Of a DNA stretch of 64,000 nt, positions 3,218 through 29,443 are shown one piece after another; the stretch's first letter is position 1, and every line of letters starts with the position of its first letter. The DNA lies in NCBI RefSeq assembly GCF_900187965.1, contig NZ_FZNL01000007.1:128405-192404 (forward strand), in the 5' to 3' direction. Origin of the DNA: Flavobacterium sp. ov086 (lineage in GTDB: Bacteria > Bacteroidota > Bacteroidia > Flavobacteriales > Flavobacteriaceae). Under the pieces are notes generated by a model that was given only the letters and a program-made list of their open reading frames with translations, was not told the DNA's origin and did not search any database. The position numbers and the translations under genes were made by a program.

Positions 3218-4126
3218 CTATTGCTTGTATTCTGTGCGATATTGAATAGGTGAAGTACTCATTATTTTTTTGAACAAACGAGAGAAATACAACGGATCAT
3301 TAAACCCCAAAGTAAAGCTGATTTCCTTAATACTCATAGTGGTGAAGCTTAGATACTGACAGGCTTTCTGCATTTTTAAATAGTTGAAATAATGTATTGG
3401 TGAATAACCTGTTTGCTTCTTAAACAAGGTAAAAAAGTGCGATGATGAATAGTTAAAATAAGCCGCTACATCATTGATTTTTAAGGATAAATCCAAATGC
3501 TTTTTCATATAGTCAATTGCAGACTCAATAGTATTATCCTCTGAAAATTTCCTGTTTTTTTTGATAAAAAATCGCTCATATAAAAAAGCATTCAACAATT
3601 GCCACAAAGAGAGATTTGCATATTCGAGATTACTGGCACTATAACCGTCTTCCATAACATCGAGTATGTTTTCAAAAAGCTCGATACGCCTTTCTTCCAA
3701 AGATAATTGTGGAGCAGTTTCCGGATGTTCGGTTATGAATTTATCGTAGAAATGTGGCGCTTGTGGTCCCGTAAAATGCAGCCAGTAAATACTCCACGGA
3801 TTTTGCTTTAAAGCATAATAATCATGCGCAACTTCCGGAGGGATTATATAAAAGGTATTCGCCTTGAGCGTTATGGTTTTATTTTCTTTACTAATAATAC
3901 CTTCACCTTTATAACAATAAATCAAGATATATTGTTTACTTCCGTGTTTGCGTTTCATCGAGTGATGACTTGCATTTGGGAAAACGCCAATATCAGTAAA
4001 ATACAAAGTTGATATAAGTCCATTATTCTTTATTTCCGAAAGTATATTTTTAGGAATCACAATCATACGTTGTCCTAAAAAGCCTTCCTTAACTTTTGTT
4101 TTTTCCTTTTGTGATGAATTCTTCAT
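3218..4126 (-). CDS. AraC family transcriptional regulator
   Basis: 302 residues. The N-terminal half is an AraC-type cupin sensor (ILIYCYKGEGIIS, LKANTFYIIPPEVAHDYYA, WSIYWLHFTG). The last ~100 residues are a double helix-turn-helix DNA-binding domain (KINDVAAYFNYSSSHFFTLF and IKEISFTLGFNDPLYFSRLF). Such proteins usually bind a sugar in the cupin and activate neighbouring transport and catabolic genes. It lies between the sugar porter (same strand, 128 bases downstream) and the aldose epimerase (divergent, 136 bases away), so it probably controls both from the 4127-4262 gap. The inducer is unknown. Confidence 0.9.
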   Translation of the reverse strand: MKNSSQKEKTKVKEGFLGQRMIVIPKNILSEIKNNGLISTLYFTDIGVFPNASHHSMKRKHGSKQYILIYCYKGEGIISKENKTITLKANTFYIIPPEVAHDYYALKQNPWSIYWLHFTGPQAPHFYDKFITEHPETAPQLSLEERRIELFENILDVMEDGYSASNLEYANLSLWQLLNAFLYERFFIKKNRKFSEDNTIESAIDYMKKHLDLSLKINDVAAYFNYSSSHFFTLFKKQTGYSPIHYFNYLKMQKACQYLSFTTMSIKEISFTLGFNDPLYFSRLFKKIMSTSPIQYRTEYKQ

Positions 4127-4262
4127 TTTTTAGAATCTATTTTTCAAATATCGTAATTTAATCCATGTTTATAGAAAAAAAGTCCATTTTGATGCAAATA
4201 ATCAAAGTTACATTTGAAATACTATTATACAGATAGTGTTTTTATCATTTTTATAAAACAAT

Positions 4263-5303
4263 ATGAATCCCTCAGATATTATTACATATGAGCCTTTTGG
4301 TTCGTATAAAGGAAAAGAAATTTTTAAATTCCGATTAAAAAATGTTCAAGGAAATTACGTTGAACTACTTAATTATGGAGCCATAGTAAAATCCATAGTT
4401 GTGCCGGACAAAAACGGAAATAGAGAAAATGTGGTTCTTGGATTTCCAACTTTAGAAGGATATTTAAAAGACACGTCATATATAGGAGCAACGGTTGGAC
4501 GTTTTGCCAACAGAATAAATAATGCCGAATTTTCTATCGAAAATAAAACGTATTATCTAGATAAAAATGATGGCAAAAGCAACAATCACAGTGGTTCGGC
4601 GGGATTTAATACTAAAGTATTTGATTTTGTTGTAAACGAAGATTCGGTCGTTTTTGTTTTAGAAAGTAAAAATAAAGAAGGTGGTTTCCCTGGAAATTTA
4701 AGTACAAAAGTCATTTATAAATGGACGGATAAAAACGAACTTAAAATTGAATTTTTGGCTGTAGCCGATGAATCAACTCCACTAAATTTTACTAATCATT
4801 CGTATTTTAATTTATCTGCTTGCGCCGAAAAAATATACAATCATAAGCTGAATATTCAGGCGACTAAAATTCTCGAAAGTACTCCGGATTATATTCCGAC
4901 AGGAAAAACTATTCCGGCAGATAACTATTTGTTTTTTAATTACAAACTAACCGATGTCATGCAAAATAACGGACTAAATATCTATTATGTTTTTGATCGA
5001 AACTCGGTAAATGAAAATGCGGTCTGCGAATTGTTCGAAGAAAAATCAGGGCGATTAATGCGTGTTTATACCTCGTATCCGGGCGTGCAATTGTATACTG
5101 GAGATTATTTAAACAGCGCAACAATTGGTGAACATTCGAAGCATTATAAAGCTTTTGATGGACTTTGTTTAGAATGCCAATATTATCCGGATAGTCCTAA
5201 TCATGCTCATTTTCCAAATACAGTATTCGAAGCAGGACAAGTTTACAATCAAACGATTACATATGCTTTTGATATTATGATTTCAAAATATGCCACAGAT
5301 TAA
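4263..5303 (+). CDS. galM: Aldose 1-epimerase (mutarotase)
   Basis: 346 residues, the usual length for GalM, without a signal peptide. It interconverts alpha and beta anomers of aldoses. Recognisable stretches are LNYGAIVKSIVVPDK, YIGATVGRFANRI, the active-site histidine regions NNHSG and FTNHSYFNLS, and the C-terminal LCLECQYYPDSPNH, where the glutamate is the expected general base and histidine the acid. The start at 4263 (MNPSDIITYE) is the first ATG after the divergent promoter region shared with the AraC regulator. It fits a pathway that imports free sugar through the porter and presents the right anomer to a kinase or isomerase. Confidence 0.93.
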   Translation: MNPSDIITYEPFGSYKGKEIFKFRLKNVQGNYVELLNYGAIVKSIVVPDKNGNRENVVLGFPTLEGYLKDTSYIGATVGRFANRINNAEFSIENKTYYLDKNDGKSNNHSGSAGFNTKVFDFVVNEDSVVFVLESKNKEGGFPGNLSTKVIYKWTDKNELKIEFLAVADESTPLNFTNHSYFNLSACAEKIYNHKLNIQATKILESTPDYIPTGKTIPADNYLFFNYKLTDVMQNNGLNIYYVFDRNSVNENAVCELFEEKSGRLMRVYTSYPGVQLYTGDYLNSATIGEHSKHYKAFDGLCLECQYYPDSPNHAHFPNTVFEAGQVYNQTITYAFDIMISKYATD

Positions 5304-5315
5304 AAGATTTTTTTC

Positions 5316-5373
5316 GCCACGAATTTCACGAATCAGCACGAATTAATTTGTGAAAATTTGTGCAATTCGTGGC
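5316..5373. repeat. 58-bp imperfect palindrome, copy 1
   Basis: Begins GCCACGAATT and ends AATTCGTGGC, with further partly complementary sequence inside, so it can form a hairpin. A second copy differing at two bases lies at 5449-5506, and a partial relative (GGCCACGAATTGCACGAATT) near 46662. It lies downstream of the aldose epimerase; no T-run makes it a convincing terminator. Confidence 0.75.
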
Positions 5374-5448
5374 TAAAAAAACTTAGCGTAAAACAATGTT
5401 CACGTTATTTTTTTGCAACAGATTATAAAGATTAAAATGTTTTTTTTC

Positions 5449-5506
5449 GCCACGAATTTCACGAATCAATACGAATTAATTTGTGAAAATTTGTGCAATT
5501 CGTGGC
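5449..5506. repeat. 58-bp imperfect palindrome, copy 2
   Basis: Near-identical direct copy of 5316-5373, with the same GCCACGAATT / AATTCGTGGC ends. The 75 bases between the copies also partly repeat the preceding flank (CAGATTA and AAAGATT). The pair fills the gap between the epimerase and the GH97 gene. Confidence 0.75.
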
Positions 5507-5561
5507 TAAAAAACTTTACGAACCAATAAACTTTAAAAACTAATCTCTAAAAACTATATTA

Positions 5562-7490
5562 ATGAAAAAAATGTTTATTCATCGATCTTTAAGTTTGCTA
5601 ATACTTGCAATGTTTCTTGCGCAGGTCAGCGTTAAAGCACAAAACGAAGGACTTTCTCTGAAGTCAAAAGACAATCTAAATAAAATTGAATTGTCTTTAA
5701 CCGAAGGAGGAAAGTTGTCCTATAAGGTTACCCGAAAGGATAAGACGATAATTTTAGATTCTCCGCTTGGTCTGACTTTCGAAAACAATGATTTTACATC
5801 AGGTTTATCGGTTGTAAAAGTTTCGCCTGTTGAAGAAAAACATGAAAAGTATGAGCTTAAAGTAGCTAATAATAAAGTCGCAGATCATGTTTTTGAAACT
5901 AAAAGCATCACTTTTAAGAATCAACAAGGCGCTTTATTGACAATAGATTTAATTGCCGGCACTGAAGGCGTTGCTTTTAGATATAAATTCACTGAAAAGG
6001 AAAATCAAAAGAGAGTTCTTAAAAATGAAATTACAGGATTTCATATCGAACAAAATGCAAAAGGATGGCTTCAACCTTATAATAAAGCGGGAGATTATAC
6101 GCCGGGTTATGAAGATTTTTATGTTAATGTAAAGTCTGGTGATCCAATAAGTGGCGCACGAAATGAATCTGTGGGTTGGTGTATGCCAGCGCTTTTTAAT
6201 GTAAATAATACTAAAAATTGGGTTTTAATTGCAGAATCAGGAACGGATGGTTCATTCTCCGGATGTCATTTACAACCAGATTCTAAAGATGGAATTTACA
6301 GTATTGCATTTGCTAAAAAAGACGAAAAATTTACTTTGCCTTTGCCGGATAAAGACGCTTATCCTGAATCAAATTTGCCGTGGACAATGCCATGGAGAGT
6401 GATTATGATTGGTGATAAGGCGGGAGATATATTATTGTCGACTATGATTACGGATTTGGCTCCGGCTTCTAAAATTGAAGATACTTCGTGGATTGTACCA
6501 GGAAAAGCGGCTTGGTCTTGGTGGTCACATCCTGAAGATTTTACGCCAGAAATGTATAATAAGTTTACTGATGTTTCGGCTTCATTTGGTTTTCGATATA
6601 CACTTTTTGATGCAGGATGGGAAAAGGCGAATAAAGAAGGAAAAATTATTGATTATGCTTTGTCAAAAGGAGTTCAACCCTTAGTTTGGGGATATTCGGC
6701 AGAATATTTTGATTCGGAAAAAAGGAAGAAAAGATTCAAAGAATTGGCTCAAATGGGTGTAAAAGGTGTTAAAATAGACTTTTGGTGTTCAGATCGTCAA
6801 GAGGTTATGGCTGCGCTACAAGGCGTTTTTGAGGATGCTGCCAAAGAACATTTATTGGTAAACCTTCACGGTACAACAGTACCAAGAGGCTGGCACAGAA
6901 CTTGGCCCAATTTTGTAACGGCAGAAGCTATTTTAGGAACTGAAAGTTATTTTTATGAGCCAAGATTCCCAGAAAAAGCAGCAGAGCAAAATGCCGTATT
7001 ACCTTTTACAAGAAACGTAGCCGGACCTGCAGATTATACTCCGTTTGCACTGACTTTTAGAAAATATACACGTTTAAACACAGCAGTTCATGAATTGGCA
7101 ATGGCTATGATTTATACCTCGGGTGTTATTCATTTTGCTGATTCTGAAGAGGTTTTTAATTCACTTCCGGACGTACTTAAGACTTTATTAAAAGAAATGC
7201 CTGCAACTTGGGATAAAACAGATTATATAGTTGCGGAACCAGGTAAAGCAATAGTTTTATCCCGTCAGAAAGATAATCTTTCTTATATCGTCGGGATAAA
7301 TGGTACAAATACCGCATCGCCAGTTTTGATTGATCTTAAAAAATATGGTAAAGGTTTTTCAAAATTCAGAATTATCTCTGAAGGCGCAGATCCGTTAATG
7401 GAATTTAAAGTTGAAACGTATCCTTTAACTTCAAACTGGAAATATAATTTGGCTCCAAAAGGAGGATTTATTATTCAGTTTATAAAATAG
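5562..7490 (+). CDS. GH97 family glycoside hydrolase, secreted (alpha-galactosidase/alpha-glucosidase type)
   Basis: 642 residues with a signal peptide ending near VKAQ (residue 27). The N-terminal beta-sandwich is followed by a (beta/alpha)8 barrel (GKAAWSWWSHPED at ~314-326, FRYTLFDAGWE at ~344-354, GVKGVKIDFW at ~399-408, NLHGTTVPRGW at ~434-444) and a C-terminal beta domain, the GH97 layout. Asp406 in the KIDF stretch sits where retaining GH97 enzymes (the BT1871 alpha-galactosidase type) have their nucleophile. SusB-type inverting enzymes use glutamates instead, so a retaining alpha-galactosidase-like enzyme is the better guess. Probably periplasmic. It follows the epimerase on the same strand after a 258-base gap with two palindromes. 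Confidence 0.9.
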   Translation: MKKMFIHRSLSLLILAMFLAQVSVKAQNEGLSLKSKDNLNKIELSLTEGGKLSYKVTRKDKTIILDSPLGLTFENNDFTSGLSVVKVSPVEEKHEKYELKVANNKVADHVFETKSITFKNQQGALLTIDLIAGTEGVAFRYKFTEKENQKRVLKNEITGFHIEQNAKGWLQPYNKAGDYTPGYEDFYVNVKSGDPISGARNESVGWCMPALFNVNNTKNWVLIAESGTDGSFSGCHLQPDSKDGIYSIAFAKKDEKFTLPLPDKDAYPESNLPWTMPWRVIMIGDKAGDILLSTMITDLAPASKIEDTSWIVPGKAAWSWWSHPEDFTPEMYNKFTDVSASFGFRYTLFDAGWEKANKEGKIIDYALSKGVQPLVWGYSAEYFDSEKRKKRFKELAQMGVKGVKIDFWCSDRQEVMAALQGVFEDAAKEHLLVNLHGTTVPRGWHRTWPNFVTAEAILGTESYFYEPRFPEKAAEQNAVLPFTRNVAGPADYTPFALTFRKYTRLNTAVHELAMAMIYTSGVIHFADSEEVFNSLPDVLKTLLKEMPATWDKTDYIVAEPGKAIVLSRQKDNLSYIVGINGTNTASPVLIDLKKYGKGFSKFRIISEGADPLMEFKVETYPLTSNWKYNLAPKGGFIIQFIK

Positions 7491-20420: not shown

Positions 20421-20966
20421 TTACATTTTTGCAAGCGATAAATTAAAACTTACTTTGATTTTATCCGCTACTTTTTTGCTAACCAGTTTTGGAATTTCGA
20501 TATCAAAATCTTCCGGTTTTATATCAAAATTTCCTGTTACCGTAATCTTGTCACCTGATTTTGAAATTTTGGCATTTGCAATTATTTTTACTGTTTTTCC
20601 GTGAAGGGTTAAATCTCCCGAAATCTTTGCTGCTTTAGCCGTAGCCGAAAGCTTTGATACGTCAAAATCTTCAACTTTTCCTTTAAATGTTGCTTTAGGA
20701 AATTTGTCTGATTCTACATAATTTTCATTAAAGTGTTCTTCCATTAAGGCTACTTTAAAGCGAAACCCTTTCATGAGCGTTAAAACGGCAATTTCTCCAG
20801 TTGATGATTCTAAAATTGCAGATGTGTTTTTATTTTCTGCGGCAACTTCTTCAACCGCTTCAACAGAAGCTTCAAATTTTAAACTACCTGTTTTTGTCGC
20901 ATATTTTTGAGCTGAAACAGGTACTATACCAGCAAACAAAAATAGGAGTACGATTATATTTTTCAT
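20421..20966 (-). CDS. YceI-like periplasmic protein
   Basis: 181 residues with a signal peptide ending near PVSAQ. The YceI lipocalin-like fold is suggested by TGSLKFEASVE, NTSAILESSTGEIAVLTLMKGFRFKVALMEEHFNENY, FPKATFKGKVEDF, ISGDLTLHGKTVKI and GNFDIKPEDFDI. YceI proteins bind long isoprenoids, such as quinone-like molecules, in the periplasm. It is the last gene of a five-gene minus-strand operon, 12 bases after the cytochrome gene, so a link to redox chemistry at the envelope is reasonable, though not shown by the sequence. A strong bidirectional terminator follows. Confidence 0.85.
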   Translation of the reverse strand: MKNIIVLLFLFAGIVPVSAQKYATKTGSLKFEASVEAVEEVAAENKNTSAILESSTGEIAVLTLMKGFRFKVALMEEHFNENYVESDKFPKATFKGKVEDFDVSKLSATAKAAKISGDLTLHGKTVKIIANAKISKSGDKITVTGNFDIKPEDFDIEIPKLVSKKVADKIKVSFNLSLAKM

Positions 20967-20978
20967 TTTAGTGTCGAT

Positions 20979-21329
20979 TTAATTTTCTAATAATCCGTCC
21001 GAATTCCATTTTAGAATTGCATCTATTTTATCCTGAGGCATTCTTCCAGCTTTTGGCATTTGTCCCGGAGATCCGTTTTGTCGCTGTATTCTATCTAAGA
21101 AATCAGTATTTAGTACAGCGTCTTTTACCTGATCATAGGTTTCTAAAGGTATAAGGGTTGAACCGCCACCATGGCAGGCAGTGCAATTTGCATCAACAAT
21201 TGATTTAACATTTGCTTTGTAAGTGACTTTGCCAACAATTACTTTAGATTCTTGCAGGCTCTCGTAAGTAGCAGATTCACAGCTATATAATGATAGTATA
21301 ATGCCGGATAGGTAAATGTATTTTTTCAT
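20979..21329 (-). CDS. Mono-haem cytochrome c lipoprotein
   Basis: 116 residues. A lipoprotein signal (LSLYSC, Cys17) is followed by one haem-binding motif CTACH (Cys49, Cys52, His53) inside VKSIVDANCTACHGGG. Met91 in GQMPKAG or Met97 is the likely second axial ligand, and the end PQDKIDAILKWNSDGLLEN is typical of small class I cytochrome domains. It should be a membrane-anchored electron carrier facing the periplasm or outside. It lies between the DUF5777 gene (11-base gap) and the YceI gene (12-base gap), so these are clearly co-transcribed. Confidence 0.88.
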   Translation of the reverse strand: MKKYIYLSGIILSLYSCESATYESLQESKVIVGKVTYKANVKSIVDANCTACHGGGSTLIPLETYDQVKDAVLNTDFLDRIQRQNGSPGQMPKAGRMPQDKIDAILKWNSDGLLEN

Positions 21330-21340
21330 ATTTAATACTT

Positions 21341-22186
21341 TTAAAAAACTCTATATAAATTAAACCCAAAGAAAAAATCGCCTTTACCCCAATTGCCGGC
21401 AGCACTTGTTAGATAGCCACTTTCGGTCATTGATTGTGAGTTTGTAAAAAGCAACTGAAAAATATGTCCTCCGGTGTCTATGTCCAGCCCAACAGATAGT
21501 GGATTGTTATAGAAACTTGGCTTGTCAAAATTCTGAGCATATTCTAAATTAAGAGAAAGTCTTTTGGTTAATTTCAATCGTCCTCCGGCGCCCAAAGTAA
21601 ATTGGTTGTCGTTTTCTATAGCAGGATTGTATAGGTTTTTGTGGATAAAAGAAGGCGCTAATTCTAAAGATATTCTCTCCGAAATTTTTCTTGAAATCAA
21701 AATTTGATTAATATAACTCAATCGGTCAGAAAACTCGATTTTAGGATAATCGTCCTTTTTTAATCCACTGTTAAAATCTATTGTACTATACCCTACAACA
21801 TCAAGAGGAAACTCATTGCTTTGTCTTAGAAGTCTAAATTTTACCGATGCTTCGTTTATTTTTAGTAAAGTATGATGTGATGCGCTTACCGAAAGCCAAT
21901 CAGTTACACCATAAATACCTCCAATTTTTGTAGTTGCATCATCAAAGCCAAAAAACTCAGAGATTCCACCTTTTACTGATCCAAATCGATGAGATATTAC
22001 CATGTAAAACTCTTTTTTGGCCGCTAACTTTGTAGATTGCAGAGTTATAATCTGTAAAGCTTTAAATGTAGCAGTTACGTTTTTGTCAGCCACTTGTGTC
22101 GAATCCAGACCAGACAGCAAATCCTCTTGTGCATTACTATATAGACAGATTAGTAAACTGGCTATTAAGATTATTTTTTTTTTCAT
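21341..22186 (-). CDS. DUF5777 family beta-barrel-like protein
   Basis: About 281 residues from the start at 22186 (MKKKIILIASLLI). This was preferred to an upstream ATG at 22210 because it gives a clean signal peptide ending SNAQ and does not overlap the preceding gene. Motifs of the DUF5777 family are FKALQIITLQSTKLAAKKEF, ISHRFGSVKGGISEFFGFDD, GIYGVTDWLSVSASH and the closing GDFFFGFNLYRVF. Alternating strands and a terminal Phe suggest an outer-membrane barrel. No function is established to my knowledge; its place in the operon beside a cytochrome suggests a channel or scaffold for a redox system. Confidence 0.82.
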   Translation of the reverse strand: MKKKIILIASLLICLYSNAQEDLLSGLDSTQVADKNVTATFKALQIITLQSTKLAAKKEFYMVISHRFGSVKGGISEFFGFDDATTKIGGIYGVTDWLSVSASHHTLLKINEASVKFRLLRQSNEFPLDVVGYSTIDFNSGLKKDDYPKIEFSDRLSYINQILISRKISERISLELAPSFIHKNLYNPAIENDNQFTLGAGGRLKLTKRLSLNLEYAQNFDKPSFYNNPLSVGLDIDTGGHIFQLLFTNSQSMTESGYLTSAAGNWGKGDFFFGFNLYRVF

Positions 22187-22188
22187 AT

Positions 22189-22584
22189 TTAGTTTTGTTG
22201 AATACTGCATTGATCAAATTTTACGACTGAGAACAAATCATCAAAACCAATACATCGTCCTTTTATATTGATCTGCTTGTTTAGGAAAGTTTTGGATGCT
22301 TTTTCATTCATTTTGCAAAATACTTTACGATCTATTACCATAGAAGAATCTGTAACTTCAGAAACTTTTCCTTCAATTTCGATTGTTTTGTTTAAGTATT
22401 TAGTGTCTGCCTTTAATGGATTGAGATTGTATTCGTTCTCTATACGTTCGGCGGTAATTGTAAGTGCTGATTTTTCATTATTGATGTCTCTGGCATCTTT
22501 ATATAAAACATTCTGATAGATATAATAGGGGCCAAAACTTATTAATAATAAAACCATTACAATCTTGATTCGTGTTTTATTCAT
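22189..22584 (-). CDS. Membrane-anchored OB-fold protein (tRNA_anti-like)
   Basis: 131 residues: one N-terminal membrane anchor (IKIVMVLLLISFGPYYIY), a short linker, then an OB-fold-like domain (YLNKTIEIEGKVSEVTDSSMVI, NKQINIKGRCIGFDDLFSVVKFDQCSI) as in the family named tRNA_anti-like. Despite the name these envelope versions are not known to bind tRNA. It sits directly before the DUF5777 gene, with 2 bases between stop and start, and after the COG4315-type lipoprotein gene in the same operon. Function unknown. Confidence 0.78.
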   Translation of the reverse strand: MNKTRIKIVMVLLLISFGPYYIYQNVLYKDARDINNEKSALTITAERIENEYNLNPLKADTKYLNKTIEIEGKVSEVTDSSMVIDRKVFCKMNEKASKTFLNKQINIKGRCIGFDDLFSVVKFDQCSIQQN

Positions 22585-22686: not shown

Positions 22687-23592
22687 TTATATTGCCAGTG
22701 GCATGTCTTTTACAGGTACTGGCCAAACAGCCGGACTTGGGAAACTAATTCCTTTATTTGAACCTCTTACATTGGCATCCTGACCAAAATAATACAAAGG
22801 CCAACCGTTGTAAACCAGTTGCGATTTACCAAATACTGTAATAACACTAAATTTTGATTTATCAAGAATTGACGGAACAACAATTTTATCTGTTTCATAG
22901 ATTGGCCAAACAGCGTTATTTGAAAAATCTGATTTCGTAAAATTGTTCTTTTTGAAGTTATCATTCTTAAAAGTATACAATGTTAATCCTTTAGCGTCTG
23001 TAAAATAGGTAGTTAAGCCATCGCCAACAGTATAGTCTGATTTGTAGTTTTTACCGTCATGTCCCACAAGCTGACTTCTAACAATCATAATCGAATAGTC
23101 TGGTTTTGCAATAAACCAAATACCGCCAACTCCGTCACCAGTTGTTTTTCCGGCAGCTTCCAGTGTGTTTTTACCTCCGTTGCCATATGCATCGCTTCCA
23201 GAAACTGGTGCATAGTAGTACAATGGCCAACCTTTATAGGTTACTTGTTTTTTACCAGATGTAGTAGTTATGGTTCCAAAATCTGAGAATGTTAGTCCTG
23301 CACCTAATTTATCTGCAGTTAAATTATCTACAACAAAAGCAGGCCATAAGGCTTCACATCCTCCTGTGCAAGATGCCTGTCCGTTTGCATCAGTTGCGAA
23401 AACATATAACGAACGTCCGGATTTATCAGAAAGATAAGTTCCCAATGTCGCACTTGTAGAAAGATTAACTTCTGTTTTTAATTCGGGAGGAGCAGGAGTA
23501 GTAGTGGGGTCACTGCTATTATCACTACTACAGCTTACGAAAAAGGTTGTTACAAAAGCAACTAAGGCGAATTTAATTTGTTTTAATTTCAT
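22687..23592 (-). CDS. COG4315-type lipoprotein with two Yx(F/W/Y)xxD repeats
   Basis: 301 residues with a lipoprotein signal (TFFVSC, Cys21) and a Ser/Thr/Pro linker. Two copies of the 'secreted repeat of unknown function' (Lipoprotein_15) follow. The first has LGTYLSDKSGRSLYVFATD and CTGGCEALWPAF, then KQVTYKGWPLYYYA. The second has LTTYFTDAKGLTLYTFKND and NAVWPIYE, then SQLVYNGWPLYYFGQD. The first repeat keeps two cysteines (CTGGC) that the second has lost. It heads the five-gene operon that includes a cytochrome c. Function is not established; a role in electron transfer is inferred from context. A candidate ECF-type promoter lies at 23812-23840. Confidence 0.85.
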   Translation of the reverse strand: MKLKQIKFALVAFVTTFFVSCSSDNSSDPTTTPAPPELKTEVNLSTSATLGTYLSDKSGRSLYVFATDANGQASCTGGCEALWPAFVVDNLTADKLGAGLTFSDFGTITTTSGKKQVTYKGWPLYYYAPVSGSDAYGNGGKNTLEAAGKTTGDGVGGIWFIAKPDYSIMIVRSQLVGHDGKNYKSDYTVGDGLTTYFTDAKGLTLYTFKNDNFKKNNFTKSDFSNNAVWPIYETDKIVVPSILDKSKFSVITVFGKSQLVYNGWPLYYFGQDANVRGSNKGISFPSPAVWPVPVKDMPLAI

Positions 23593-23811: not shown

Positions 23812-23840
23812 TAAAACAGCCTTGACGTAGATTACCCTAC
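23812..23840 (-). promoter_or_regulatory. Candidate ECF operator/promoter, site 3 (upstream of COG4315-type operon)
   Basis: On the minus strand GTAGGGTAA, 12 bases, CTGTTTTA. The spacing equals that of the sites at 27366-27394 and 27960-27988. It lies ~220 bases upstream of the lipoprotein start, in the 320-base gap after the TonB receptor gene. The rest of that gap shows nothing else clear. Confidence 0.6.
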
Positions 23841-23912
23841 CAAAGAATTGTTATTTTATGAAAAAAAATAAGAAAAGAGGCAATGTTTTTTTCTAATCTT
23901 GCTAAAATAGCT

Positions 23913-26447
23913 TTAAAGTGAAACTCTAAAACTCACATTTGGAGTTCTTTGCAATGCAAATGTTTCAACTTCCTCTATAGAATTAGTTAAAGAACTTATT
24001 CTATAATATTCGCTGATTTCATTTTTTCGGTTCAGGATATTTAAGATAGATATCCCTAATTTGTACTGAATTCCCTTTGTAGTTTCCCACTTGTAAGTCG
24101 AGGAAAAGTTAACCTGCGAAAAAATATGTAAATTGGTATTATTAGGTTTGTTGTAAACCAATACAGGATTCGAATTATCTATTTGGGAGTTATCCGGAGA
24201 GGTTTTTGGCCTTCCCGAAGACCATTTTGTCCCCAAAGCAATTTTGAAATTGTTTTTTTCATAAATCCCTGCCCATGAAACCGTATGCATTACCTCAAAG
24301 TTGTTGGGGAAACTTGGGTATTCATAACTGGCAAAATGATAATTGTTATGGTTATAAGTATAACTTAGCCAAGTCAAAAAGTGATTCATTTTTTTCTGAA
24401 CGAGCATTTCGGTTCCCCAAACTTCATAATCGCCGGTTATACGTACAAATTCTAACTGGTTCTGAAAACCCTGGCTTGAGGTTGTAATTCCGGATACTTT
24501 TTTATAAAAATTTTCGACATCCAATAACCAGTCATTCTTTTTGTAGAATAAGTTTAAAGATATTTGCTTACTTCTTTGAATAGGAATTGTTGTGTTATTA
24601 GAGATAATCCAGCGTCTTTTTTCAATGCCAAAATAATCTTTTTGCAAATCAATAGTTTGTTGTGAATTTTGACTTTTAAGTTCCCCCAGAAGCTCTAAAT
24701 TAAGATTTTTATTAATGCCATAGTTAAACTGAATACGCGGTTCTACGATATATTTTTTAAACTTTTCGATATAATTAATTCGCGTTCCCACCTTAAAATA
24801 TATCCTCGAAATGGTATCGTTGTATTTTCCTTCTAAAATTAAAGCATGAGTTCGAAGCACGTCTTTGACTTTACGATAGAAATCAGGATTTTGTACCTGT
24901 TCTAAATTAGTAATGCCAATTTCGTTGAACTGATAGCCATCGTTAAAACTAAATAGGGAGGTAATAGTATGGTTGTTTTCTAAATTGAATCCATTATTAT
25001 TTACCGTGTTTTCCTGAATGACGATTTGGTTCTCAAAGGTTGTTTTTTGATTGGCTAAAAGCTCATAAGAAGAATTATAAATATTGACTTTAGTTGTATT
25101 AAAGGCATTCCAGTTTCTTCTCCACGACAAGTTTCCACCATAATTTTGTTGACGCAAAACATTATTTTCCGATCTGTTCATATCATAAAATGTGGCACTT
25201 TGAAAAACTTCAAGATTGTCTTTAATAGTAATTAAATCCAGTATCAATTGATCTTTATTTCCAATTTTTTGAGCATATTTTAGGGTAGCATCATAAAAAC
25301 CAAATTTCTTGTCACTTTGGTAGTTGACATTTTGTTTGTCTGAAAAATCAGTTATGGTCGTGTTTTGAAATACTTTATTGAAATATTCTTTATATGTAGG
25401 GGTTTCTACAAAATCAGTAATGGATTTACGTGCCGAAATTTCGATCGAACTCTTTTTCGAAAGATTATATTTCGCATAAATATCAGCATTAATCATATTT
25501 ATTCCCGCACTAAACGAATTTTTTTCAGCAGTTTCAGGAGTAGAAGAAATTGCAACTACGCTAGAGACACTTTCTCCATAAAAAGCAGAGCTTCCGTTTT
25601 TATAAATTGAAATGGTGTGCGCCAAATTAGGATTGAAAACAGATATTAAACCAAAAAAATGTCCTGTTTGAAACATTCTTATTCCGTTCCATGAAAATAA
25701 ATTCTGATCGTGTGTACCACCGCGAACATTGATACTCGATACACTTTCGTCGATGCTGTTTACACCTGGTATTTGCTGCATGGTTTGCAAAGCATCCGGT
25801 TCGATAAGTCCGGGAAGAATACTAAACTTTTTAGGTTTTATTTCAAATGAGCCATCTTTGTTCTTGGAAATTCCCGAAGCTAAAATAGCACTGGTTTTAA
25901 TTTCTGCGAGCTCAGTAATTTCAGGGTCTAATTGTATTTGAAGGCAATTTTTAGAGTCAGAATTATTTGCCACAATCCTTTTAGTCAGGAATCCAACGTG
26001 GCTAATCAAAAATACATTTTCATTTTCTTTTTGAAATTCAAAATAACCGTTTGAATCCGTTGTAACCTGAGTTTTGTCAGATAAACTAATATTGGCGTTT
26101 TCAATGGGTTTTTTATCCATGTTCGAAAAGACGTATCCGCAAATTATTGGGGATTGATTTTCCTTCTTATAAATATTAATGAATTTATTGCCTATGTTTT
26201 CAAAAGACAAATTGGTGTTTTTTGCCAGATATTGCAGTTTTTGATCTAAAGAAATTGATCTCTTTGGAGGACTTAATCGCAGATCCTTAATGTTATCCTC
26301 CGTATAATTAAAAGTAACCTGATGTTGTTGCTCTATATTATTTATAATTTTTTTAAAAGGCATGAGTTTCCCTTTGTCCTGAGCAAAAAGATTCAGGGCA
26401 AGGAAAAAAAGAAAAAACAAAAAATGAAATTGTTTGGGGAGCAACAT
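23913..26447 (-). CDS. TonB-dependent receptor with STN-like and carboxypeptidase-like N-terminal domains
   Basis: 844 residues. After a signal peptide (FFLFFLALNLFAQ) comes an STN-type domain (~30-95: FKKIINNIEQQHQVTFNYTE, KLQYLAKNTNLSFENIGN). Next are a carboxypeptidase-like domain (~102-175: ICGYVFSNMDKKPIENANIS), the plug (~205-310: ALQTMQQIPGVNSI, INVRGGTHDQNLFSWNGIRM) and a beta-barrel ending NVSFRVSL. The length and the absence of a SusD gene point to a FecA-like receptor rather than a SusC. The FecR gene is immediately upstream (start and stop adjacent), so the STN domain probably signals to it. The ligand is unknown; a metal chelate or haem-type compound is one option. Confidence 0.92.
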   Translation of the reverse strand: MLLPKQFHFLFFLFFLALNLFAQDKGKLMPFKKIINNIEQQHQVTFNYTEDNIKDLRLSPPKRSISLDQKLQYLAKNTNLSFENIGNKFINIYKKENQSPIICGYVFSNMDKKPIENANISLSDKTQVTTDSNGYFEFQKENENVFLISHVGFLTKRIVANNSDSKNCLQIQLDPEITELAEIKTSAILASGISKNKDGSFEIKPKKFSILPGLIEPDALQTMQQIPGVNSIDESVSSINVRGGTHDQNLFSWNGIRMFQTGHFFGLISVFNPNLAHTISIYKNGSSAFYGESVSSVVAISSTPETAEKNSFSAGINMINADIYAKYNLSKKSSIEISARKSITDFVETPTYKEYFNKVFQNTTITDFSDKQNVNYQSDKKFGFYDATLKYAQKIGNKDQLILDLITIKDNLEVFQSATFYDMNRSENNVLRQQNYGGNLSWRRNWNAFNTTKVNIYNSSYELLANQKTTFENQIVIQENTVNNNGFNLENNHTITSLFSFNDGYQFNEIGITNLEQVQNPDFYRKVKDVLRTHALILEGKYNDTISRIYFKVGTRINYIEKFKKYIVEPRIQFNYGINKNLNLELLGELKSQNSQQTIDLQKDYFGIEKRRWIISNNTTIPIQRSKQISLNLFYKKNDWLLDVENFYKKVSGITTSSQGFQNQLEFVRITGDYEVWGTEMLVQKKMNHFLTWLSYTYNHNNYHFASYEYPSFPNNFEVMHTVSWAGIYEKNNFKIALGTKWSSGRPKTSPDNSQIDNSNPVLVYNKPNNTNLHIFSQVNFSSTYKWETTKGIQYKLGISILNILNRKNEISEYYRISSLTNSIEEVETFALQRTPNVSFRVSL

Positions 26448-27347
26448 TTATTTTTCGTCAAAGATTATTTTATTTTTGGAGACTTTTTTAGCCTCTAAAT
26501 GATACGTTGTACTAATAATTTGCAGGGCCACATCCAGGTTTTTGGCAGGTAATTTTCCTGTAAATGCTGAGATAGTATCTTTCGAGTTTAATTCGATGGT
26601 AACATTATATTGTCTTTCAACTTCATCTAATAGTGTTCTGATATTTTCTTTATAAAAACATATTTGATCTTCCGTCCATTCTGGTTTTAATGAATTTATG
26701 ATCATTTTTGTTTGTTTTCCGTTTTCGTAACTAACACCTTGACCGTGGGTTAATAAAATCTCATTGTTCGCGTAATTTACTTTTACACGTCCTTCATAAC
26801 AAACAACATCAAACCTGTTTTTTCTAACTTTTACGTTAAATTGAGTTCCCAAAACAGATACTTTCCCAAGATTAGTACGCACTTCAAATCGTCGGCCTTT
26901 GGATACCCTGAAATAGGCTTCACCTTTTAATTCCAAACGTCTGTTATTGTCCCAGTTCCATTTTTTATAATTTATTTCAGAACCAGAATTTAGTACCACT
27001 TCAGATTTATCAGGTAATGAAAAAGCTGTTTTTTCGCCATAATTTGCTCTTTCGGTTTGGGTAACATAAAACTTCATTGCAAATGTAATTCCAAGAGCCA
27101 ATACAAGAATTGCCGCCGCCTTAAACACCCATTTTTTGTATAAAGGAATTACTTTCGGAGCTTCTTTCTTTTGTTTAAGAATGTTGGATAATATAGCATT
27201 TTCATCCAAATCATCTATCTCTAGATGTTCTGTATAATTCTTTATCTTTTGGTATTTTTCAAAATCGGGACTTGCTTCAAATTCAGCCAATTCATCTTGC
27301 GATAAATCATTGTTAAGCCATTTTGCTAATAAGCGATTTTTTTTCAT
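26448..27347 (-). CDS. FecR family anti-sigma factor
   Basis: About 299 residues from the start at 27347 (MKKNRLLAKWLNNDLSQDEL). This start was preferred to an ATG at 27407, which would overlap the sigma gene and add a non-homologous extension. A cytoplasmic sigma-binding segment precedes a membrane span (WVFKAAAILVLALGITFAM). The FecR domain follows (AFSLPDKSEVVLNSGSEINY, RLELKGEAYFRVSKGRRFEV, VLGTQFNVKV, VCYEGRVKV), then an STN-like C-terminus (VERQYNVTIEL). It pairs with the sigma gene 49 bases upstream and the receptor gene immediately downstream. A candidate promoter lies in the 49-base gap. Confidence 0.92.
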   Translation of the reverse strand: MKKNRLLAKWLNNDLSQDELAEFEASPDFEKYQKIKNYTEHLEIDDLDENAILSNILKQKKEAPKVIPLYKKWVFKAAAILVLALGITFAMKFYVTQTERANYGEKTAFSLPDKSEVVLNSGSEINYKKWNWDNNRRLELKGEAYFRVSKGRRFEVRTNLGKVSVLGTQFNVKVRKNRFDVVCYEGRVKVNYANNEILLTHGQGVSYENGKQTKMIINSLKPEWTEDQICFYKENIRTLLDEVERQYNVTIELNSKDTISAFTGKLPAKNLDVALQIISTTYHLEAKKVSKNKIIFDEK

Positions 27348-27365
27348 TGTACTAGTATTATATAT

Positions 27366-27394
27366 TAAAACAATTGGAACTAAATTTACCCTAC
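27366..27394 (-). promoter_or_regulatory. Candidate ECF operator/promoter, site 1 (between sigma and anti-sigma genes)
   Basis: On the minus strand GTAGGGTAA, 12 bases, TTGTTTTA, then the AT-rich ATATATAATA. It starts 2 bases past the sigma gene's stop and ends 18 bases before the FecR start, so it would drive fecR and the receptor gene. Confidence 0.65.
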
Positions 27395-27396
27395 TT

Positions 27397-27924
27397 TTAT
27401 AAATCAATTTCTTTGCGCAGACTTATCAAAGCCAAATGAATGCGCTTTTCTACTGCCTTTACACTAATGTTTAACTCGAGGGCAATTTCGCTGTATTTTT
27501 TTCCGTCAATTCGGTGCATTAAAAAAGCAATGCGTTGTTTTTCGTTTAAGTTTTCAATTGCCTTTAGTAGTTTTGACTGAAATTGTTTTTCCTCCAGAAT
27601 ATATTCGGGACTTTCGTTTGTTTTGTCTAAACCCGTGAAGTTTTTTTCATATCTGAGAACAACTTTCTGATGCGCAATTGCGTTGAGACTGCTATTGTTT
27701 GCAATGGTATAAATATATGATTTTGCTTTTTCAAGCGGTACCGAAGCACAATTTTGCCAAAGTTTGACAAATGCTTCCTGTGCGACATCTTCTGCCTGAT
27801 CGAGATTGCCAAATTTGTAGAAAAGAAAATTCCGAAGTGCTTTTACATGACTTTTGAAAAAAGAAGAAAAAATTATTTCGTCGCAAGTATTCGATTGGTT
27901 TTTATTTGGCATTTGGATTTTCAA
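27397..27924 (-). CDS. ECF sigma factor (FecI-like)
   Basis: 175 residues (a start four codons later is also possible). Region 2: FFKSHVKALRNFLFYKFGNL, AEDVAQEAFVKLWQNC, SYIYTIANNSSLNAIAHQKV. Region 4: KAIENLNEKQRIAFLMHRIDG, KYSEIALELNISVKAVEKRI. It completes a FecI-FecR-TonB receptor triad transcribed on the minus strand. The likely recognition motif (GTAGGGTAA-N12-YTGTTTTA) is found before fecR, before the COG4315-type operon and in the region divergent to this gene, but not correctly oriented for the sigma gene itself. Confidence 0.92.
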   Translation of the reverse strand: MKIQMPNKNQSNTCDEIIFSSFFKSHVKALRNFLFYKFGNLDQAEDVAQEAFVKLWQNCASVPLEKAKSYIYTIANNSSLNAIAHQKVVLRYEKNFTGLDKTNESPEYILEEKQFQSKLLKAIENLNEKQRIAFLMHRIDGKKYSEIALELNISVKAVEKRIHLALISLRKEIDL

Positions 27925-27959
27925 TTTGTACGTAGCAAAAGTATTTGTTTTTATTTTAA

Positions 27960-27988
27960 GTAGGGTAAAAGCAAAGCTGATTGTTTTA
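27960..27988 (+). promoter_or_regulatory. Candidate ECF operator/promoter, site 2 (divergent from sigma gene)
   Basis: GTAGGGTAA, 12 bases, TTGTTTTA on the plus strand, 35 bases outside the sigma gene's start and ~123 bases upstream of the lipoprotein gene at 28112. Confidence 0.55.
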
Positions 27989-28111: not shown

Positions 28112-29131
28112 ATGCTCTCCTTAAAAAAATATTTATCAATAGCAGTATTTTTGTTCCTGTTGTCTTGCCAGAGCGAAATGGATGAGCAAACTAATACTGC
28201 ACAGGGAACAATTAGTAATGTTTCCCCGCTTACTACTTATCTGCAAAGGGTTGCGATGGTACAAACCGTGCAGGATAATATAATCGACAGGTCTAGTTAT
28301 TGTACCATAAAACTCCCATATACAGTTACTGTTAATAATGCAAAAATTGCAGTAAATACTACCGCTGACTATCAAAAAGTAATCGATAATATTAATGCAA
28401 ATAATTATGATGATGATATTGTCAAAATAGATTTTCCGGTGACAATGGTGTACTATAATTACATTGAAAAAGATATTCCGAATGAAGCCGATTTCAATTC
28501 CTTAATCGATTACTGGAATCTTTATCCTGATCTTTTATCAAAAATAAACGGACTAAATATCGATTATCCTATCACGATTAATATCTATAACAGCGCAAAT
28601 CAAGTTGCGAGTTCAGCATCGATTACAGATGATCAGGCATTTTTTAATTTTATAAAAAACTTGAACGCCAGTCAGTATATTTCACTAAAATATCCAATTT
28701 CTGTACTGGATTATAACAATCAGACAAAAGTGATTTCGAATAATCTGGATTTCGAAAATGCAATAAAATATGCCATTGATTATTGTCCGGAAAATAATAT
28801 TGTAGCGCTCGATTTTGTAACTGCAATAACAAATGGCTCTTGGGGAATACCTTATTATTTTACAGATTCAGATAAAACTTCGTCTTATAGTGGATATTCA
28901 TTTGTTTTTAAAAGCGATAAGTCAGTAGTTGCTACCAAAGGGTCAACCACAGAAACAGGGACATGGGAAACTATAGTGCAGAATAATGTTAGAGAATTGC
29001 AGCTAAATTTCAGTTCAGAATTACTAAGTAAGCTAAATACGAATTGGAAACTTTTTGAATTTAATAATTCGCAAATTAGATTGCGTACAGTAAGCAACAG
29101 TACTAATTATCTTTATTTTGAAAAAAACTAG
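28112..29131 (+). CDS. Lipoprotein with four ~42-residue repeats and a lipocalin-like C-terminus (unknown function)
   Basis: 339 residues with a lipoprotein signal (FLFLLSC, Cys19). Four beta-rich repeats of 40-44 residues follow, each opening with a hydrophobic-x-Y/F/L-P-hydrophobic-T/S pattern: IKLPYTVTV (Pro69), IDFPVTMVYY (Pro109), IDYPITINIY (Pro153), LKYPISVLDY (Pro195). The last ~100 residues (WGIPYYFTD, YSGYSFVFKSDKSVVATKG, GTWETIV, YLYFEKN) look like a lipocalin-type beta-barrel. I know similar lipoproteins only as hypothetical. It is divergent from the FecI gene and may share its regulon through the site at 27960. Confidence 0.75.
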   Translation: MLSLKKYLSIAVFLFLLSCQSEMDEQTNTAQGTISNVSPLTTYLQRVAMVQTVQDNIIDRSSYCTIKLPYTVTVNNAKIAVNTTADYQKVIDNINANNYDDDIVKIDFPVTMVYYNYIEKDIPNEADFNSLIDYWNLYPDLLSKINGLNIDYPITINIYNSANQVASSASITDDQAFFNFIKNLNASQYISLKYPISVLDYNNQTKVISNNLDFENAIKYAIDYCPENNIVALDFVTAITNGSWGIPYYFTDSDKTSSYSGYSFVFKSDKSVVATKGSTTETGTWETIVQNNVRELQLNFSSELLSKLNTNWKLFEFNNSQIRLRTVSNSTNYLYFEKN

Positions 29132-29198: not shown

Positions 29199-29443
29199 CA
29201 AACGTTTCTACAGAACGTAAAAAAGTGCTGTAATTATTGGGCTAACGATGAAATGTTCCGATGGAACAAAACCAATAAATATAAATATATTTGTTAATGA
29301 TGACAGTGATATTTATTTTCTAATAATCATAATTAACAAACAAGATGATGAGATATTGTCCACAACAATTTGTTCCATCGGAACATTTTATCGGTAGAAA
29401 AAAATGTATCGTGAGAAATATCGTCCCATTGGGACGTTTGAGA
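29199..29443. repeat. Palindromic intergenic element, copy C (two halves in swapped order)
   Basis: 29199-29277 matches the right half of copy B (AAACGTTTCTACAGAACGT, then AACGATGAAATGTTCCGATG). 29372-29443 matches its left half (GTTCCATCGGAACATTTTAT, then CGTCCCATTGGGACG at 29422-29436). The halves are thus permuted, as if left from two tandem copies. This fills most of the gap 29132-29555. Confidence 0.65.

Follow-up and report, generated by a model that had tools for sequence, protein, structure and literature searches.

A probable FecI/FecR-type regulon with a predicted promoter signature of its own in Flavobacterium

The genome of Flavobacterium sp. ov086 contains a locus whose sequence marks it as a probable cell-surface-signalling regulon of the FecI/FecR type, with a predicted promoter signature of its own. 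We have studied it in a stretch of 64,000 nt (contig NZ_FZNL01000007.1, positions 128,405–192,404), which we call the window. Its central gene codes for a fecI-like sigma factor of the extracytoplasmic function (ECF) type. The motif GTAGGGTAA-N12-YTGTTTTA is present in three exact copies in the window, all of which had been noticed, with the same positions and strands, in a preliminary description of this DNA. In our view the three sites are very probably promoters for this sigma factor, which would unite their transcription units in one regulon. The preliminary description had proposed the same, and the comparison with other genomes supports it: the sites track the sigma gene, they keep one spacing and a narrow distance to the start of the anti-sigma gene, they accompany their targets when these are rearranged, and one base of the -10 block is changed at a paralogous sigma factor.

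The first candidate promoter site is found on the minus strand (27366..27394), between the sigma and anti-sigma genes, and precedes fecR and a TonB-dependent receptor gene. Its block GTAGGG (27394–27389) is separated by 16 bases from TGTTTTA (27372–27366). The stop codon of the sigma gene occupies 27397–27399, and the likely start of fecR is an ATG with its first base at 27347, 18 bases past the motif. The second site (27960..27988, plus strand) points toward a divergent lipoprotein gene at 28112, with 123 bases intervening. The third one (23812..23840, minus strand) is found between the receptor gene and the gene of a COG4315-type lipoprotein, 219 bases from the ATG of the latter. The spacers of the three sites are unlike one another, as had been remarked earlier of the 12 intervening bases. 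GTAGGG would serve as the -35 element and TGTTTTA as the -10 element; the blocks of ECF promoters are typically about 16–17 bases apart. At the level of sequence these sites have what is expected of ECF-type promoters, namely a spacing of 16, a position before gene starts and a variant at a paralogue accompanied by changes in the sigma protein.

The preliminary description had proposed a scan of the whole genome. In its 6,214,810 bases we find three exact copies, all of them at the places just given, and none with the reversed motif as a control. Up to three mismatches give four matches in the window, compared with a mean of 0.65 in shuffled sequences. With up to two mismatches there are 12 sites in the whole genome (three exact, two at the paralogous sigma factor and seven others); the reversed control also gives 12, so that loose matches alone are uninformative and we claim no further members of the regulon. 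The sole site with one mismatch (C23:58584) is antisense within an open reading frame (ORF) of 148 amino acids and was taken as chance. A site with two mismatches in contig C40 was also discarded: the only ORF of at least 80 amino acids in the 3 kb around overlaps it on the opposite strand.

Conservation of the sites across relatives

We have compared loci of sigma orthologues in a named set, the best 80 of 489 loci, chosen from named genomes by alignment of the sigma protein and independently of the motif. The best general form across relatives is GTAGGG-N16-TGTTHWA, and a site was counted when at least 12 of its 13 core bases were found at spacing 16. A site follows the stop codon of the sigma gene, in the gap before the anti-sigma gene, in all 80 loci; on the divergent side, facing away from the sigma gene, it is present in all 77 loci long enough for testing. 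Perfect matches to GTAGGG/TGTTHWA number 194 in 1,224,076 bases, every one of them with spacing 16 and none with any other spacing from 10 to 22. Matches with spacing 18 at 12/13 (6 gap and 38 divergent loci) were read as a self-overlap of GTTTTATA; none reaches 13/13.

The spacers turn over between species while both blocks persist. When loci are thinned to less than 70% identity outside the blocks, GTAGGG has 2.0 bits per base, the -10 block 1.63–1.80 and the spacer 0.62–0.71, in sets of 15–27 loci each where picking the best match inflates the values of the blocks; the gap set, with 27 loci, has 2.0, 1.63 and 0.62. Between the -10 block and the ATG of the anti-sigma gene there are 15–23 bases in 140 of 151 loci, with 18 or 19 in most cases. 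Many distant orthologues have the stop codon TAG of their sigma gene within GTAGGG. The named sigma orthologues with at least 90% identity are all from Flavobacterium, with the exception of one from [Flexibacter] sp. Outside the genus the motif is kept in several relatives (L241, L243, L245 and L251), and a variant GTAGGA is found in L243, L246, L248 and L252.

Motif and sigma gene also occur together within the genus. Among 121 congeneric genomes, 51 have a sigma orthologue, called as a best match of at least 200 bits. The exact 16-base motif has 71 sites in 34 of 121 genomes sampled in like manner (reversed control 0): it is present in 33 of the 51 genomes with the sigma gene and in one of the other 70 (Fisher p 1.5e-15, uncorrected for phylogeny). 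The preliminary description had held that many copies inside coding regions or at random places would speak against a promoter; 68 of the 71 sites are intergenic and three lie within ORFs, in stretches which are 83% covered by ORFs. There is an ORF start on the same strand within 350 bases for 66 sites, all intergenic. Two intergenic sites are exceptions: in L059 the start of a lipoprotein gene directly downstream was overlooked by the ORF picker, and in L071 (position 7516, another contig of genome G097) no ORF begins within 350 bases of the exact motif. The three sites within ORFs were taken as chance. Two of them, with an identical spacer, are in pdxH-like genes of G040 and G048, the third one is in an argS-like gene of G073; these genes were recognised by eye. 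No sigma orthologue was found in G048, a genome 91% complete.

The sites follow their targets into rearranged places. In the named loci with a COG4315 or OB-fold gene after the receptor, a site (at least 12/13) is found in between in 57 out of 57 cases, and it is perfect in 48. In the congeneric loci L034–L091 which have the OB operon, 24 of 29 have a site of at least 12/13 within 700 bases before the OB or COG4315 gene. The COG4315 gene and the OB operon each have their own site in L034–L037; L038 has the COG4315 gene in inverted orientation, with a site to itself. In G062, a draft genome, the OB-DUF5777-cytochrome-YceI operon is found with two divergent sites, on a contig (L058) other than that of the sigma gene.

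Some loci are peculiar in their organization. F. cupreum (L194, L166) and F. circumlabens (L195, L161) have the system twice per genome, and no lipoprotein neighbour was recognised in L194 and L195. In L061 a type IX secretion-tail protein (3991–5571) is placed between the sigma gene and fecR, after a motif with one mismatch.

The paralogous sigma factor and other readings of the motif

A paralogue of the sigma factor in this genome, fecI2 (47% identity), has its own lipoprotein, fecR and receptor in the same layout (L053, contig C44, 22000–41900). Its two sites have the form ATAGGGTAA-N13-TGTCTTA. The TGTCTTA pattern has two sites in this genome, both at fecI2 (reversed control 1). In the fecI2 group the gap site is TGTCTTA in 12 of 12 loci, and GTAGGG is common to most of them: the main difference is one base of the -10 block. 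Gap sites are absent from a third sigma group (45–53% identity, 7 loci). The region-2 loop of ECF sigma factors reads the -10 element. When 52 sigma proteins are compared with the 12 of the fecI2 group, 20 positions differ, each of them at least 80% conserved in both groups; positions 58, 59, 63 and 65 are in what we take to be the region-2 loop and positions 151, 158 and 159 presumably in region 4. In 168 loci (some genomes are counted twice) there are 152 gap sites and 154 divergent sites; 146 loci have both, and base 4 of the -10 block is identical in the two sites in 144 of them. Claims on residues from a comparison of G and A at base 6 of the -35 block were dropped, as just four loci have A.

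The motif is absent in about 3.5 kb around each of the other 27 of the 29 ECF loci of the TIGR02985 type in this genome. At L118 (C15:298604–299065), which has another ECF gene, the next gap starts with TAGGAAC and contains TTGTTATA; it possibly holds a related promoter in which both the -35 block and the spacing are different. A wider scheme can be put forward only tentatively, and we rather doubt it: GTAGGG would be a -35 element common to the FecI-type sigma factors of Flavobacteriaceae, with specificity residing in a -10 element (TGTTTTA or TGTCTTA) read by the region-2 loop, and the regulon, sensed through the receptor, would build an outer-membrane redox conduit with lipoproteins (carrying CXXCH in some lineages), the DUF5777 barrel, a cytochrome c and YceI.

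Several observations weigh against the assignment of the three sites to one dedicated sigma factor. The counts of loci are not independent, since many loci are closely related and some genomes are found in both collections. In 18 of the 51 genomes with the sigma gene there is no exact motif, as the sequence has drifted (GTAGGGTTT, TGTTATA, TGTTTAA). Base 4 of the -10 block is discordant between both sites in two of the 146 loci. No site of at least 12/13 is found within 700 bases before the OB operon in L061, L068, L083, L085 and L089, all of them distant, nor is there a clear gap site in L088 and in L090, the second sigma copy of G060. Outside the genus the gap site is absent in L242, L244, L247, L249 and L250, which all keep the divergent site; L248 lacks the divergent one. 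Neither site is found in L257–L259 (gap at 10/13, divergent at 11/13), and L256 has a gap match at 10/13 and no divergent site at 11/13.

The most serious alternative is that the sites, though true promoters, serve several ECF sigma factors whose specificities overlap, so that there would be no single dedicated regulon. The genome has 29 ECF matches of the TIGR02985 type, fecI2 shares GTAGGG in most of its loci and differs mainly at one base of the -10 block, and an overlap of specificity is suggested for F. psychrophilum in the consulted part of PMC9723704. However no such motif lies near 27 of the 29 ECF loci and each -10 variant is confined to its own sigma group at the gap site, so that we consider this explanation unlikely. 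The motif might instead be an operator, bound by a regulator such as a one-component activator which acts together with the primary sigma factor; the local sigma gene would then be a mere neighbour. A dimer could make its contacts at the two conserved half-blocks, and an unlabelled regulator gene could escape our maps of the neighbourhood, which used the genes of the window itself as queries. Yet neither block is a direct or inverted repeat of the other, and their 16-base spacing suits -35 and -10 elements. Furthermore the occurrence of the motif follows that of the sigma gene, and the -10 block of the paralogue changes together with residues of the region-2 loop; an operator is thus very improbable. 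A chance coincidence or a remnant of a dispersed repeat, which the presence of just three copies within 4.2 kb could suggest, has a negligible probability and is already contradicted by the conservation of the motif: the reversed control is empty throughout the genome, and the spacers differ within the genome and change from one species to another while the blocks remain.

Genes of the locus and the proposed circuit

The sigma factor (27397..27912, minus strand, 171 amino acids) matches Pfam Sigma70_r2 and r4. It has the composition of an ECF (group IV) factor, with sigma regions 2 and 4 only and a length of about 170 amino acids; its score with the NCBIfam model of the Bacteroides-type ECF subfamily, TIGR02985, is 120.8 bits, just below the cut-off of 126.4. 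As in FecI/FecR/TonB cell-surface signalling, the adjacent gene codes for a FecR-type anti-sigma factor or sigma regulator (26448..27347, minus strand), with Pfam matches to FecR (1.1e-17) and FecR_C, from a scan of a translation with one extra codon. The TonB-dependent receptor (23913..26447, minus strand, 844 amino acids) has Plug, CarbopepD_reg_2 (a carboxypeptidase-like domain) and FecR_C; this last match, in its N-terminal part, is barely above the cut-off (24.7 compared with 24.4 bits). Its sequence has no match up to E 0.1 among solved structures.

The sigma gene itself has a different kind of box upstream, TACTTTTG (27936..27943, minus strand). It fits TAnnTTTG, which the consulted parts of two papers give as the -7 consensus of the primary sigma factor of Bacteroidetes (PMC7366714, PMC9723704). 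Out of 79 named loci, 52 have TAnnTTTG in the 70 bases that precede the sigma gene (shuffled mean 1.66, maximum 6). The sigma gene is not behind the motif, a point absent from the preliminary description, and since the box is conserved the gene is probably transcribed by the housekeeping enzyme; the target promoters of the sigma factor probably begin after its gene, with the anti-sigma factor.

The genes beyond the third site are all on the minus strand. The COG4315-type lipoprotein (22687..23592) has Lipoprotein_15 repeats and a match to SCO0930 under the cut-off. It is followed by a small protein with an OB fold (tRNA_anti-like, 22189..22584), found by a profile match, and by a DUF5777 protein (21341..22186), which from a profile match and a structural model is a predicted outer-membrane beta barrel. 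Its AlphaFold2 model has a pLDDT of 73.4 and its best PDB matches, among those listed, are barrels: KdgM (Z 18.1, 166 residues, root mean square deviation (rmsd) 2.0) and also FapF (Z 18.1, 206 residues, rmsd 3.1). A search of the literature on DUF5777 and COG4315 gave nothing informative. Then come a small c-type cytochrome (20979..21329), with a CTACH heme motif and 25.4 bits for Pfam Cytochrome_CBB3, just below the cut-off of 27, and a YceI-domain protein (20421..20966; Pfam YceI 1.3e-15). On the plus strand, the probable divergent lipoprotein (28112..29131) has no family in Pfam or NCBIfam. Its C-terminal domain is lipocalin-like: the model has a pLDDT of 83.2 and the best structure listed is 4qrl (Z 11.0, rmsd 2.4, 92 residues). 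Downstream of this gene, at 29240–29440, there are short intergenic pieces, repeated or inverted, of the type GATGGAACA / TGTTCCATC, as judged by eye.

In other genomes we have noticed several neighbours of the motif. Beside the DUF5777 operon in L056 (13607–14788) and L058 (5088–5672) there are lipoproteins with weak cytochrome matches of the CXXCH type, under the cut-off, and divergent copies of the motif lie between them and the operon. In G065 (L072), on another contig, a site is followed by a gene with a weak match to DUF4382 (19.2 bits, cut-off 25). In G079 (L074, near 7027) an exact motif precedes a GTP cyclohydrolase II gene by about 70 bases, on a contig without the sigma gene; a link to flavin synthesis is possible. 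We infer a redox role for the operon because a cytochrome, YceI and the CXXCH lipoproteins are present.

A circuit can be proposed from these features. The sigma factor would be transcribed separately, from its housekeeping-type promoter, and held by the FecR-like protein. Upon engagement of the TonB receptor by a signal, it would act from the three sites. Such a flow from receptor to FecR and then to sigma is presumed because it is established for FecI/FecR systems. Transcription of fecR and the receptor gene would provide feedback through more anti-sigma factor and more sensor; the divergent lipoprotein would be the second target, and the output would come from the COG4315/OB/DUF5777/cytochrome/YceI operon. 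In this circuit it is direct binding, the places of the transcription starts, the structure of the operons and the sign of the feedback that we infer.

Comparison with known systems

The sensing module resembles that of the Fec system of Escherichia coli (FecI/FecR/FecA), with an ECF sigma factor, a FecR-type regulator and a TonB-dependent receptor. According to the consulted part of a review, the receptor has a sigma-dependent promoter: fecA has its own, while fecIR is controlled by Fur and is not autoregulated (PMC9249621). In contrast, the Flavobacterium locus has a candidate promoter between the sigma and anti-sigma genes, so that the anti-sigma factor would belong to the regulon, while the sigma gene is equipped with a separate box. 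The output is also different, as it includes a cytochrome/beta-barrel/YceI operon.

Bacteroidetes may carry dozens of ECF sigma factors. The parts of the literature consulted state that by 2020 no recognition motif was known for any alternative ECF factor of Bacteroides thetaiotaomicron, while that of EcfO of B. fragilis was known (PMC7366714), and that in 2025 non-canonical promoters were proposed for two ECF factors of B. thetaiotaomicron (PMC12596196). In this species TGTT is reported near -10 at two promoters linked to SigW-1, in a motif non-significant according to its authors, which may be compared with TGTTTTA. The PM2 motif differs in that it is near-palindromic and its elements have their centres at -10 and -30 (PMC7366714), and GTAGGG does not appear in the consulted part of its description. 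Within the genus, the SM6 motif of F. psychrophilum is likewise ascribed to ECF sigma factors, but its -10 region contains a CGT box, and several genes with SM6 code for components of the type IX secretion system, in the part consulted (PMC9723704); the motif described here has TGTTTTA, with envelope genes which include a cytochrome. It is not described in any title or abstract listed by our searches of the open-licence literature; several of the papers listed contain the letters GTAGGG.

This motif can be assigned to one sigma factor by sequence comparison, it can be checked in many species, and it can be contrasted with that of a paralogue in the same cell. The contrast between the two sigma factors offers a ready test of specificity. 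The probable regulon couples a TonB-receptor sensor to a cytochrome/beta-barrel/YceI module.

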